A stretch of 35,428 nucleotides of DNA from Ktedonobacteria bacterium (lineage in GTDB: Bacteria > Chloroflexota > Ktedonobacteria > Ktedonobacterales > JACDGC01), in assembly GCA_027459705.1 (NCBI GenBank), contig DAIDHM010000085.1, positions 1 to 35,428 of the forward strand, written 5' to 3'. Numbering within the stretch: position 1 is the first letter of the stretch; every line of letters begins with the position of its first letter. Positions 24,988-30,214 of this stretch are shown one piece after another. A model generated the notes under the pieces. That model searched no databases. It was not told the origin of the DNA and saw only the letters and a program-made list of their open reading frames with translations. The translations under genes were made by a program, and so were the position numbers.

Positions 24988-27516
24988 TCAATTGGCCACA
25001 AAACTGATCATTTTACCCGGGATATAGATCACCTTGCGGACCATCTTACCTTCCAGCGCGGCCATGACACGGGGATTGGCCTCAGCGGAGGCGCGGACCG
25101 TCGCTTCATCAGCGTCGGGCGTGGCTTCGATAGTGCCGCGCATCTTGCCATTGACCTGTACCGGGATGGTGACGATCGTGTCGATCGTCAGTGCGACGTC
25201 AAAAGTCGGCCAGTCCGACTGATGAATGCTGGTAGTATGTCCTCGACGGTGCCACAGCTCCTCCGTGATGAACGGCGCCAGAGGAGCCAGCATCTGAATC
25301 AGCGCGTCAACGGTGGCCGTGAAGGCGGCGGGCTCGCGCGCCGCGGTGCCATCTTCGCGTGCCGCATACAGCGCGTTGGTCAGTTCCATCGCCGCCGCCA
25401 GCGCGGTGTTGAAATGCAGCTTCCCATAATGCTCTGTCATACGCTGGATAATCTTGTGACGCAGGCGGACCAGGGATGTCACCACCTCCGGGGCATCCAC
25501 CGCAGGTACAACCTCCGGTTGCGAGATAATCCAGACACGCTGGATGAACCGTGAGATCCCTTCAATGCCCTGATCGTTCCAGGGACCACCCATATCGTAA
25601 GGGCCCATGAACATCAAATAACAGCGCACCGCATCGGCGCCATATTTGCCGACAACTGTATCAGGGGCGATGACATTGCCGCGAGATTTCGACATTTTCT
25701 GGTTATCTGGACCCAGCACGATGCCCTGGTGAAACAAGCGGGTGAAGGGCTCATCGAAGTGCAAGTAGCCCATATCGCGCAACCCTTTCACGAAGAAGCG
25801 CGCATACAGCAGATGCATCACCGTGTGCTCTGCGCCACCGTTGTACATATTCACTGGTAACCAGCGCTTGATATGCTCCTGATCCCAGGGCGCCGTCGCA
25901 TTATGTGGATCAGCATAGCGCAAGAAATACCACGATGAACATATGAAGCCGTCCAGCGTATCGGTCTCGCGCCGCGCCGGGCCACCACAGACCGGGCAGG
26001 TCGTATTGATGAACTCTGGTACATACTTCAGGGGCGATTCGCCAGTCGGTTTAAACTCGACATAGTCGGGCAGCAGCACGGGCAGCTGATCTTCAGGGAT
26101 CGGCACGGTGCCATGTTCTGGACAATAGACGATCGGGATCGGCGTTCCCCAGAAGCGTTGACGCGAGATCAACCAATCACGCAGGCGATATGTTACCTTC
26201 GCCGATCCGACACCGCGCTGTGTGATCGCCGCGATAGCCGCCGCTTTGGATTGATCACCGGGGGTTCCATCGAAGGGACCCGAGTTGACCATGCGGCCCA
26301 TTGCGGGGCGCGCCGCCGTCCAGGTCGCGGGATCAGACGGTGCCTCATCTTCGGGGCAGATGACCTGGGTGATAGGCAATCCAAAAATACGTGCGAATTC
26401 GAAATCGCGCTGATCATGGGCAGGCACGCCCATCACCGCGCCCGTGCCATAGCTCATCAGCACATAATCAGCGATCCAGACGGGCACTTTAGCGCCACTG
26501 ATGGGGTTTGTGACATACCCACCCGTAAAGACCCCTGTCTTCGTTCGATCCGTACTCAGCCGCTCAATCTCAGATTCGCGCCGTACCGCTTCCACATAAG
26601 CGCGGACCGCACGCTTCCGCCCGGCAGTGGTGATGCGCTCCACCAGTGGATGTTCTGGCGCCAGGACGAAGAAGGTCACGCCATAGATCGTGTCTGGTCG
26701 GGTCGTAAAGACTGGCACTTCCACAATCTCAGCGGGTTGCGGCGCGGCCCCTTTGGCACGCGATCGCTTTGCCGGGATTTCGGCCGTGAAGCGAATCTCA
26801 GCACCCTCGCTGCGGCCAATCCAATTCTTCTGCATCAGCATGGTCTTCTCGGGCCAATCCAGGCCGTCGAAGTGCAGCAGTTCTTCGGCGTACCTGGTGA
26901 TACGCAGCAGCCACTGATCGATTTCTTTACGGACCACGATGCTATCGCAGCGCTCACACCGCCCATCTTTGACCTGTTCATTGGCCAGTGTCGTATTGCA
27001 AGAGGGGCACCAATTGGCGGGCGCTTTCGTTCGGTATGCCAGCCCGGCCTTATAGAATTGCAGGAACAGCCATTGCGACCAGCGGTAATAGTCTGGTTCG
27101 CACGAGACCACCTCGCGCGACCAATCCCAATGCGCGCCCATCAGCCGCAATTGTTGGCGCATGTTGGCGATATTGGCCAGCGTCCAATCGCGCGGCTGGA
27201 TGTTGCGTTTTATCGCGGCATTTTCCGCCGGCAACCCGAATGCGTCGAAACCAATGGGTTGCATGACATTGTAGCCGCGCATGCGCATGAAGCGGCTGAA
27301 GGCATCGTGGCCAGTATAGTTGTACCAATGGCCGATATGCAGATCCCCGGATGGGTACGGCAACATGACCAGGCTATAGTAGTTCTCTTTGCCGGGCACT
27401 TCATCAGGCGTATCGCCCACGTGCTGTTCGGCCCAGGCAGTCCGCCAGTATTGCTCGACGGCTTGGTGAGGATATCGTCCCGGTGCTTCGACGGGGCGGG
27501 TGGAGGTGGAAGTCAT
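24988..27516 (-). CDS. leuS: Leucyl-tRNA synthetase
   Basis: Class I aminoacyl-tRNA synthetase that charges tRNA-Leu, 842 residues, the normal bacterial length. The HIGH signature is at residues 60-63 (SGDLHIGHW), KMSKS near residue 605 (DNQKMSKSRGNV). The CP1 editing domain has VFTTRPDTIYG and GVPAHDQRDFEFA; a zinc-like motif CPSC...CERC is near 160-180, and a second, CPVCGG, before the KMSKS domain. The C-terminal VQVNGKMRGTIE domain is present. The ATG at 27516 is chosen because the domain starts normally there; AAAGGA is 13 nt away, so initiation may be weak. A further in-frame start at 27573 is not supported. Expression is controlled by an upstream T-box with a Leu specifier. Confidence 0.97.
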   Translation of the reverse strand: MTSTSTRPVEAPGRYPHQAVEQYWRTAWAEQHVGDTPDEVPGKENYYSLVMLPYPSGDLHIGHWYNYTGHDAFSRFMRMRGYNVMQPIGFDAFGLPAENAAIKRNIQPRDWTLANIANMRQQLRLMGAHWDWSREVVSCEPDYYRWSQWLFLQFYKAGLAYRTKAPANWCPSCNTTLANEQVKDGRCERCDSIVVRKEIDQWLLRITRYAEELLHFDGLDWPEKTMLMQKNWIGRSEGAEIRFTAEIPAKRSRAKGAAPQPAEIVEVPVFTTRPDTIYGVTFFVLAPEHPLVERITTAGRKRAVRAYVEAVRRESEIERLSTDRTKTGVFTGGYVTNPISGAKVPVWIADYVLMSYGTGAVMGVPAHDQRDFEFARIFGLPITQVICPEDEAPSDPATWTAARPAMGRMVNSGPFDGTPGDQSKAAAIAAITQRGVGSAKVTYRLRDWLISRQRFWGTPIPIVYCPEHGTVPIPEDQLPVLLPDYVEFKPTGESPLKYVPEFINTTCPVCGGPARRETDTLDGFICSSWYFLRYADPHNATAPWDQEHIKRWLPVNMYNGGAEHTVMHLLYARFFVKGLRDMGYLHFDEPFTRLFHQGIVLGPDNQKMSKSRGNVIAPDTVVGKYGADAVRCYLMFMGPYDMGGPWNDQGIEGISRFIQRVWIISQPEVVPAVDAPEVVTSLVRLRHKIIQRMTEHYGKLHFNTALAAAMELTNALYAAREDGTAAREPAAFTATVDALIQMLAPLAPFITEELWHRRGHTTSIHQSDWPTFDVALTIDTIVTIPVQVNGKMRGTIEATPDADEATVRASAEANPRVMAALEGKMVRKVIYIPGKMISFVAN

Positions 27517-27744: not shown

Positions 27745-27854
27745 CACGGGCACTCCTTTCGTCGTAGCCAAGTCGGGCCAAATTCCACGGTAGCAGAGCA
27801 CACTCGTCGCAACGGTAGAAGCGTAACGCCGAGTAACCGATAAAACTTGCCAAT

Positions 27855-27892
27855 AAAAAAGCGCCTTTCGTCCTGATCGGGACGAAAGACGC
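27855..27892 (-). terminator. T-box intrinsic terminator
   Basis: Thirteen-bp stem with one G-U pair (27880-27892 with 27861-27873 on the minus strand), 6-nt loop, then six Ts. Its 5' arm (CTTTCGTCC) is the usual competitor of the T-box antiterminator. Confidence 0.9.
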
Positions 27893-27930
27893 AACGCTTT
27901 CGCGGTACCACCCCATGTTGGTGGGTGTCT

Positions 27931-28006
27931 TGGTGGACCTGAGGGGACTCGAACCCCTGACCTTCTGCATGCCATGCAGACGCGCTCCCGGCTGCGCCAC
28001 AGGCCC
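27931..28006 (-). tRNA. tRNA-Ala(GGC), embedded in the leuS T-box leader
   Basis: Complete cloverleaf on the minus strand: 7-bp acceptor GGGCCTG/CAGGTCC (one G-U), D-arm GCGC/GCGC, anticodon stem TCTGC/GCAGA with loop ATGGCAT (anticodon GGC, Ala), 5-nt variable loop, T-arm AGGGG/CCCCT with TTCGAGT. The discriminator is A and CCA is encoded (27931-27933), total 76 nt. There is no promoter of its own between it and the riboswitch Stem I, so it seems to be transcribed from the leuS promoter at 28194-28222. Ala identity pair G3-U70 is present (third acceptor pair is G-U), which supports real alanine charging. Confidence 0.95.
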
Positions 28007-28193
28007 AAGTGATGGATGACCCACCCGCTTGGCGATCCGCTAACGTGGATCAGACGGCCCCGACTACTTGATTCACCGGGCCAGGGAAAGACAAGCGAGT
28101 TCGGTCACTCATTGTCGCCTCGCACCAACCGGCGACTCGCTGTTTTTGGCGTGACGTACTACTCTTGCCGACCCAAGTCTCAATTGCTTCTCT

Positions 28194-28222
28194 ATTCTAC
28201 CACCACGGCGCACGAATTGCAA
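28194..28222 (-). promoter_or_regulatory. Promoter for the tRNA-Ala/leuS leader transcript
   Basis: Minus-strand TTGCAA (28217-28222), exact 17-nt spacer, TAGAAT (28194-28199). The transcript would begin near 28187, about 18 nt before the base of Stem I, as expected for a T-box leader. Confidence 0.6.
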
Positions 28223-28493: not shown

Positions 28494-29636
28494 ATGAGCA
28501 AGACCTCCCGAACGCCGCGCACGACCAATGGGCAGGCACCAAAACCGGCTTCTGCCACGGCGGGTGCCGCGACAAAAGCCGGGGTGACTTCCGCCGCGCG
28601 CACCTCCACACCGCTGACGAGTAGCACAAAAACGCCATCGCGACCCATCACAGCCGCGAGCGCAGTGCCACCCTCAACCACACCGACAGCTTCCGCAACG
28701 CCTGCGGCACGTACCGGTGAGCGCGCCAGCGGCCAGAACACGGTGCGTCCCGTGAGCAAAGCCACCCAACAAGCGATGAGCGCGGGACAACTGCGTCGAC
28801 TCAAAGCCAAGCGGGACGAACGGAATCGCCGACTGATGCCGCTCTATGGTGCGGGCGGAGTGCTGGTTATCGTCGTCGCGATCTTCATTATCTTCTCGCT
28901 CCTCAATACCGGCGGCTCAACCTCAGCCAATGCGAAGACGACTCAAGCGGTCGCCAATAGTGTCACGACGGTACCCCTCAGCATATACCAGGGGATTGGG
29001 ACAGGTGGCGTGACGAGCATTTTACAAAAAGTCACGCCGTCAGTCGCCGTCTTGAAGGACAGCGCTGGCAAGCCATTGATAGTCTATGTCGGCGGGGAAT
29101 TTTGCCCTTACTGCGCCGCATATCGCTGGTCGATTATTGCCGCCCTGAGCCGCTTTGGCACGTTCAAGAATCTGGCTTTAACGACCTCGTCCTCTACGGA
29201 TATCTATCCCGATACGAACACGTTTACGTTCGTTGGCAGTAGCTATACCAGCCAATACATTACCTACTCGGCGACGGAGATTGAAGATCGCAATCAGCAA
29301 GCCTTGCAGACGCTGAACGCGCAAGATCAACAACTCTTCAATACCTATGACGGCCCACCCTACTCACAATCTGCTGGTGGAATCCCGTTCTTAGATATTG
29401 CCAATCAATATGTCACCGAAGCGAGTCCGTACAATCCGCAAGACATCAATGGCATGACCTGGTCACAGATTGCGGCCGCCCTGGGCAACCCTGGAAGTAC
29501 GCCAGCGCGTGACATTATCGGCACAGCCAATTACCTGACCGCCGCCATCTGCAATGTCACGAATAATCAGCCAGCCTCGGTCTGCCAGGCCGCGCCGATC
29601 CCGACGATTCAACAACAAGTGAATAGTGGGAAATGA
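28494..29636 (+). CDS. DUF929 family membrane-anchored thioredoxin-fold protein
   Basis: 380-residue protein. The first 110 residues are low-complexity, rich in Thr, Ser, Ala and Pro, ending in a basic stretch [14 protein letters not shown]. One membrane segment (about 116-135, [16 protein letters not shown]) then puts the rest outside. The exported part has the redox motif CPYC in [15 protein letters not shown] (about residue 203), with a thioredoxin-like fold as in DUF929 proteins, including [12 protein letters not shown] as the cis-Pro loop. A further C-terminal cysteine pair (ICNVTN, VCQAAP) is present. It probably acts as an extracytoplasmic thiol-disulfide oxidoreductase. AAAGGAC precedes the ATG. 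The next gene overlaps by 4 nt and encodes a VKOR, its likely redox partner. Confidence 0.85.
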
Positions 29637-30214
29637 ACAACGCACGAGGTGAGATGATGGAAACATCAACTGGACCCTGGCAACGCGTCTGGGGTATTGC
29701 TCGCGCAGTACCACTGCAGAGCGTGATTATCCTCAGTGCGGTGATCGGGGTCGGGATCTCGCTTTATTTAACCGAGGTCCATTATCAGGCCGTACCGTTG
29801 ATCTGTTCAACAAGCGGCTATGTGGACTGCGCGTCCGTGCTCAAGAGCCGCTTTGGCGTGGTTCCGGGCACAGCGATCCCCATTACCTTTCCGGGTATTC
29901 TCTGGTTCCTGGTGAGTGGCGGGCTGGCGCTGACCGACCTGGTGGCACGCACCCGCAATCAAGCAGCACCAACCTGGCTTTACCGCGCGCAGGCCGCCTG
30001 GGGGGCAGTAGGGATCTTGAGTATCCTCTATCTCATTTACGCGGAGATCGTGGTCCTCCACCACCTCTGCGCCTGGTGCACTGGCGTGCATGTGCTAGTC
30101 GTCTTGACCTTCATGCTCGCACTCTATCAGATGCAGGATGATGTGCCTGCCCCGGTCAAACCAGCACCCGCCGCGCGTCGACCCGCTCCACGCGCGACCG
30201 CGCGTCGGCGCTGA
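29633..30214 (+). CDS. Vitamin K epoxide reductase (VKOR) family protein
   Basis: Integral membrane protein of 193 residues with about four membrane segments. Conserved VKOR cysteines are present: loop pair C58 and C66 ([10 protein letters not shown]) and the quinone-site CAWC motif (C146, C149), with the conserved Ser/Thr-rich loop between helices. Bacterial VKORs pass electrons from periplasmic Dsb-like thioredoxins to quinone, like DsbB. It overlaps the upstream DUF929 gene by ATGA, so the two are translationally coupled and probably form a disulfide-forming pair. An alternative start at 29654 follows GAGGTGAG. The Ala/Pro/Arg-rich C-terminal tail is unusual. Confidence 0.9.

Follow-up and report, generated by a model that had tools for sequence, protein, structure and literature searches.

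In rRNA operons, the spacer between 16S and 23S rRNA carries genes for tRNA-Ala and tRNA-Ile, and a tRNA is thus nested among the parts of a larger structured RNA. The locus described here has the same nesting, but the host of its tRNA-Ala is a predicted riboswitch that would decide on termination and not an rRNA. Other tRNA genes in operons are also cotranscribed with different RNAs and excised by RNase P, and such an excision would be expected here as well; unlike those genes, however, this tRNA is enclosed in a regulatory RNA, between the halves of a decision unit. The closest described systems are T-box leaders of the leuS class (Rfam RF00230). The leader shares with them Stem I with a CUC specifier, Stem II, the IIA/B region, the RRRxG-Stem III-AA arrangement, the UGGU bulge, a competing terminator and leuS on the 3' side, but it differs by a whole tRNA-Ala gene in the loop of Stem III and by a score below the gathering threshold of the model.

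The RRRxG...AA signature around Stem III is described for T-boxes in the accessible text of a T-box review, which also lists insertions in every T-box domain as curious and unexplained and cites a tandem of T-box and ppGpp riboswitch (PMC7583486). As far as that text describes it, the tandem is likewise a composite leader with a T-box, whereas the partner in the present leader is a housekeeping tRNA gene that is nested rather than arranged in series. The available portions of the TBDB paper (PMC7778990), of the review (PMC7583486) and of an older survey (PMC2494555) do not mention nested tRNAs. A T-box with a nested tRNA was not found described in the open-licence literature; subscription papers could contain one. 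The best reading is that the leader is a T-box variant not previously described, which doubles as a tRNA precursor.

Results

The window, the whole stretch of 35,428 nucleotides of Ktedonobacteria DNA that was analysed, contains a leuS leader on its minus strand with the following parts, given in the order of transcription:

28194..28222, minus strand: sigma-70-like promoter (TTGCAA, 17 nt, TAGAAT) 5' of Stem I; an identical site is present in the family member L140
28089..28175, minus strand: T-box Stem I with AGUA bulge and distal GGUUGGUG loop (RF00230 alignment)
28097..28099, minus strand: specifier codon CUC (Leu) inside GAACUC (sequence and RF00230 alignment)
28056..28082, minus strand: Stem II with GAA/AGUA (S-turn) elements (RF00230 alignment)
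28033..28055, minus strand: Stem IIA/B region with conserved CGUUA (RF00230 alignment)
28026..28030, minus strand: AAGCG, the RRRxG purine motif 5' of Stem III (flank analysis; motif as given in the accessible text of PMC7583486)
28019..28025, minus strand: Stem III 5' arm GGUGGGU (RF00230 alignment and flank-pairing tests)
27931..28006, minus strand: complete tRNA-Ala(GGC) that sits in the loop of Stem III; G3:U70 and A73 present, CCA encoded (Infernal, ARAGORN)
27920..27926, minus strand: Stem III 3' arm ACCCACC (RF00230 alignment and flank-pairing tests)
27918..27919, minus strand: AA motif 3' of Stem III (flank analysis)
27901..27914, minus strand: T-box sequence GGGGTGGTACCGCG / GGGGUGGUACCGCG, 5' side of the antiterminator, with the UGGU bulge at 27910-27907 (sequence, RF00230 alignment)
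27854..27892, minus strand: intrinsic terminator, 13-bp stem at 27892-27861 and U tract (sequence)
24988..27516, minus strand: leuS, leucyl-tRNA synthetase, ATG at 27516 (TIGR00396, 972 bits; Pfam)

The original prediction placed a full tRNA-Ala between the two domains of a leuS T-box, and this was borne out by two programs. Infernal aligned the leader with the full length of RF00230 (1-219/219, 28175-27875(-), 73.1 bits, E 8.1e-16) and placed an insert of 89 nt within the loop of Stem III; a tRNA match (RF00005, 28006-27934(-), 63.2 bits) was obtained there, and ARAGORN called tRNA-Ala(GGC) at 28006-27931 with the CCA encoded. The spacers between Stem III and the tRNA are 12 nt on the 5' side and 4 nt on the 3' side. 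The distance from the CCA to the T-box motif, predicted as 17 nt, is 16 nt when counted to GGGG. The leader has the UGGN bulge, and CUUUCGUCC is common to terminator and antiterminator, so that the two compete. The RRRxG-Stem III-AA discriminator motif is present, the CUC specifier agrees with the downstream leuS and with the genomic tRNA-Leu(GAG), and the tRNA has a cloverleaf with the anticodon, G3:U70 and A73 expected for tRNA-Ala. The minimum free energy fold of the 338-nt leader alone did not return the T-box fold, single-sequence folds being unreliable at such length.

The Rfam gathering score for RF00230 is 93, and a default Rfam scan of the window therefore reveals the tRNA alone. All 15 T-box matches in the own genome (15/15) are below this score; default scans thus overlook T-boxes in this lineage. 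The finding suggests that counts of T-boxes in Chloroflexota and deep Bacillota are too low in model-based surveys.

The surroundings of the leader have two further features. The 5' UTR of leuS, in the stretch from the terminator to the start codon, contains a perfect 13-bp inverted repeat, AGAGGTACGTCAT / ATGACGTACCTCT (27668-27631(-)), without U tract, and a divergent pair of genes for a DUF929 protein and a VKOR-family protein adjoins the leader at 28494-30214(+).

It had been proposed that the cloverleaf takes the place of Stem III. This idea had to be given up since a separate, covarying helix surrounds the tRNA: Stem III, GGUGGGU/ACCCACC, and its RRRxG...AA flanks are visible in both alignment and sequence, and the tRNA consequently occupies its apical loop. 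For a statistical assessment, the 60 nt 5' of the tRNA were searched for helices with the linker 3' of it in each element, and the 3' flanks were permuted among the elements as control. The mean score of flank pairing was 16.7 compared with 13.4 in the permutations (sd 0.23). With strict anchoring, in which the helix begins directly after RRRNG and stops directly before AA, a helix of at least 5 bp was found in 75 of 122 elements versus 14.1±3.1 after permutation (permuted maximum 23). The excess was seen in Chloroflexota (40/65 versus 5.1±1.9) as well as in Bacillota (33/52 versus 14.3±2.3) taken separately. At this anchoring, 47 of the 122 elements have no helix of 5 bp or more; most of them show some helix in a looser search. 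Altogether, 60 distinct pairs of Stem III arms were seen, in which several Watson-Crick types are seen at each of pairs 2 to 7; these counts are circular, as the helices were picked for pairing, and the permutation test is free of this circularity. Compensatory changes are many, and one is seen in the family of the window, where GGTGGGT/ACCCACC (L139) stands against GATGAGC/GCTCATC (L140). The sequences thus show a Stem III helix around the nested tRNA.

Relatives were searched with a pattern of a T-arm followed by the T-box motif, which was found in at least 120 stretches of genome contigs and in 18 of 101 relatives. Among the matches listed, every one with a genuine tRNA by ARAGORN was a tRNA-Ala(GGC). 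Pattern loci without an ARAGORN tRNA (for example L020, L021, L024, L035, L043 and L145) consist of T-arm-like sequences close to unrelated T-boxes and were left out. After loci around additional GGC tRNAs had been added, the nested set comprised 126 distinct elements. All 126 tRNAs are Ala(GGC), all 126 have G3:U70 and all 126 have A73; the CCA is encoded in 92 and missing in 34. GAACUC is present in 115 of the 126; seven of the other eleven have CUC in a variant context and four are cut at a contig end. CUC is thus the specifier in all nested elements whose Stem I can be read, and in all nested elements the tRNA is inserted in the loop of Stem III. A leuS match was found downstream at 123 of 139 places among the matches listed, and most of the remaining places either lack a tRNA or lie in records that stop too early; wherever the record extends far enough leuS follows, except for a few cases with a gap of the size of a gene. 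In L026, L092, L102 and L124, leuS begins only about 1.9 to 2.1 kb past the nested leader, which leaves room for a gene-sized item in between.

The nested form was found in 42 of 400 genomes of Chloroflexota, the phylum of the window, and in 65 of 300 genomes of the Syntrophomonas phylum; both counts come from a strict pattern and are lower bounds. According to the record labels, the Bacillota with this form include Syntrophomonadaceae, Desulfofundulus, Desulfovirgula, Thermaerobacter, Symbiobacterium and others, and further labels are Chloroflexota including Thermomicrobia, Armatimonadota, Coprothermobacterota, Caldisericota and a few more. It should be mentioned that phylum labels of metagenome-assembled genomes are partly unreliable: L036, labelled Proteobacteria, is on the same contig as G049, which is classed as Chloroflexota. 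Cultivable hosts with the nested form are Syntrophomonas wolfei (L076), Thermosyntropha lipolytica (L029) and Desulfovirgula thermocuniculi (L130). By these sequence comparisons, the nested tRNA-Ala in the leuS T-box is real and widespread across several phyla.

In the own genome, the pattern search found one tRNA with a GGC anticodon, the nested copy, and most relatives likewise have one. In 24 of 24 scored genomes reached via named records the nested copy is the sole GGC tRNA; four further genomes, outside the 24, have a G after the anticodon and were missed by the pattern. A second GGC tRNA-Ala is present in five Ktedonobacteria-like genomes (G019, G039, G040, G043 and G045). As to the own genome, tRNA-Leu(GAG), the cognate of the CUC specifier, is present there in a single copy. 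No tRNA-Ala(UGC) was found in the own genome, a draft of 245 contigs, the tRNA inventory of which is therefore incomplete. Given its usual single-copy status, the nested tRNA-Ala is likely processed and charged in the cell.

In the nested elements, the promoter-like score is raised in the 85 nt 5' of Stem I (9.7 versus 7.5 in shuffled sequences), and the 85 nt that precede the tRNA show no enrichment (7.3 versus 7.1). An internal start ahead of the tRNA had been named as an objection to a common transcript; the lack of promoter enrichment between Stem I and the tRNA speaks against it. In the window, no promoter-like site was found between specifier and tRNA, and the sole promoter-like site precedes Stem I. 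The terminator lies 3' of the tRNA and, therefore, terminated and read-through transcripts would both carry it. By its layout this is one transcription unit with tRNA-Ala in each transcript, regardless of whether leuS is read, and in this point the original prediction is upheld.

tRNA-Ala(GGC) and leuS are also found together in other arrangements. In the sister genome L265, tRNA-Ala(GGC) is followed by a leuS T-box whose Stem III is a plain hairpin, GGTGTCGC ACCA GCGACACC, within the same RRRxG...AA flanks; this is the same leader with the tRNA upstream, again at variance with a cloverleaf that replaces Stem III. Closest to L265 in the LeuS tree are the rows L037 and L085, both with the tRNA inside Stem III. 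In L176, L177, L178 and L271, tRNA-Ala(GGC) is immediately 5' of Stem I, and L264 and L268 have a leuS T-box without any tRNA. Family f4, in the order of the window, has tRNA-Ala(GGC) ahead of leuS with the T-box absent (L160, L162, L164, L166 and L167).

Some of these loci have peculiarities of their own. Tandem tRNA-Ala genes, first (CGC) and then (GGC), stand immediately 5' of the leuS T-box in L176, L177 and L271. In L087, a tRNA with a tRNA-Ala-like 3' half precedes a leader that itself nests tRNA-Ala(GGC). A terminator-like hairpin stays in front of leuS in the members of family f4 that were read.

Discussion

The leader has, in conserved form, the parts that a transcriptional T-box needs to work, and the nested tRNA has retained its identity as an alanine tRNA; the economical reading is, therefore, two functions on one RNA. 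Judged from sequence, we give a probability of about 80% to a transcriptional leucine T-box that controls leuS and whose Stem III holds a functional tRNA-Ala(GGC) gene in its apical loop. Transcription would begin 5' of Stem I, and Stem I and Stem II would recognise the anticodon of tRNA-Leu(GAG). Next, the polymerase would make tRNA-Ala, around which Stem III would shut, before the T-box bulge probes the 3' end of the bound tRNA-Leu. Either the antiterminator would form and leuS be read, or the terminator would form and the RNA stop. We infer that the attenuated leader would be a tRNA precursor rather than waste, and that the tRNA would be made at a rate independent of leucine. RNase P and 3' processing would free the tRNA-Ala, and the 7-bp Stem III could act as a splint that keeps the halves of the leader joined once the tRNA is excised. 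That the nested tRNA itself acts in cis on the T-box bulge is unlikely in view of the CUC specifier, the 34 of 126 elements without encoded CCA and a 3' end that is not free in the nascent RNA.

A trivial explanation would be an assembly error or a chance juxtaposition in a single draft genome, and the fragmentation of the own genome into 245 contigs could be taken in its favour. However, the same layout is present in more than 100 independent genomes of both phyla surveyed, among them contigs of several Mb; an assembly error is refuted by these relatives, the chance of such an accident is practically nil, and an accidental fusion of T-box and tRNA, which had been considered from the start, is not indicated. 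The tRNA and the T-box could also be two independent, adjacent units, the tRNA with its own promoter and the T-box either working separately or dead. Family f4, in which the tRNA-Ala(GGC) before leuS has its own promoter-like site and no T-box, is in line with this, but the nested elements lack promoter enrichment between specifier and tRNA, none was found in the window, and the arms of Stem III that flank the tRNA covary. We regard two separate units as very improbable.

It is tempting to speculate that the two functions are coupled and that folding of the tRNA-Ala or its processing by RNase P takes part in the switch. The tRNA could delay the polymerase for binding of tRNA-Leu, or the sensor could be cut from the platform, which would set the leuS output or free the mRNA from its leader. 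The same tRNA isotype and the same T-box are always paired across phyla, beyond the expectation for random hitchhiking, and the insertion is invariably at the Stem III loop. However, leuS leaders with the tRNA 5' of Stem I or with none keep an ordinary T-box (L265, L271, L264 and L268), and the nested tRNA is therefore, by all appearances, not required for switching; its retention is explained by the single-copy need for the tRNA plus descent. Coupling thus seems rather unlikely to us. Improbable as well is a new bifunctional class of RNA with riboswitch and housekeeping tRNA precursor in one fold, in which the regulatory decision, or else what becomes of the leuS mRNA, would be coupled to excision by RNase P and the Stem III splint would outlast the excision.

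With the preferred reading, a leucine T-box with a functional tRNA-Ala gene in Stem III, a natural regulatory RNA would carry in its sensing domain a tRNA that normally has no other copy in the cell. Attenuation by the T-box would yield a useful product at every initiation, and RNase P would meet a substrate whose excision opens a riboswitch. Some of the unexplained Stem III insertions listed in the accessible text of the review (PMC7583486) may thereby obtain a concrete identity. Whether tRNA maturation and riboswitch switching proceed on one transcript without interference or are coupled is a testable question.

A LeuS tree with 115 rows shows more clustering of the nested state than shuffles do; 18 changes are needed, at least 11 of them on well-supported branches. 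This fits an old link between tRNA-Ala(GGC) and leuS in which the tRNA may have moved into Stem III at an early time or several times and was often lost, with some transfer. Transfer is suggested by the nested elements of L034 (labelled Coprothermobacterota) and L055 (Caldisericota), which have a very short Stem I and a tRNA near-identical to the one in Desulfofundulus relatives.
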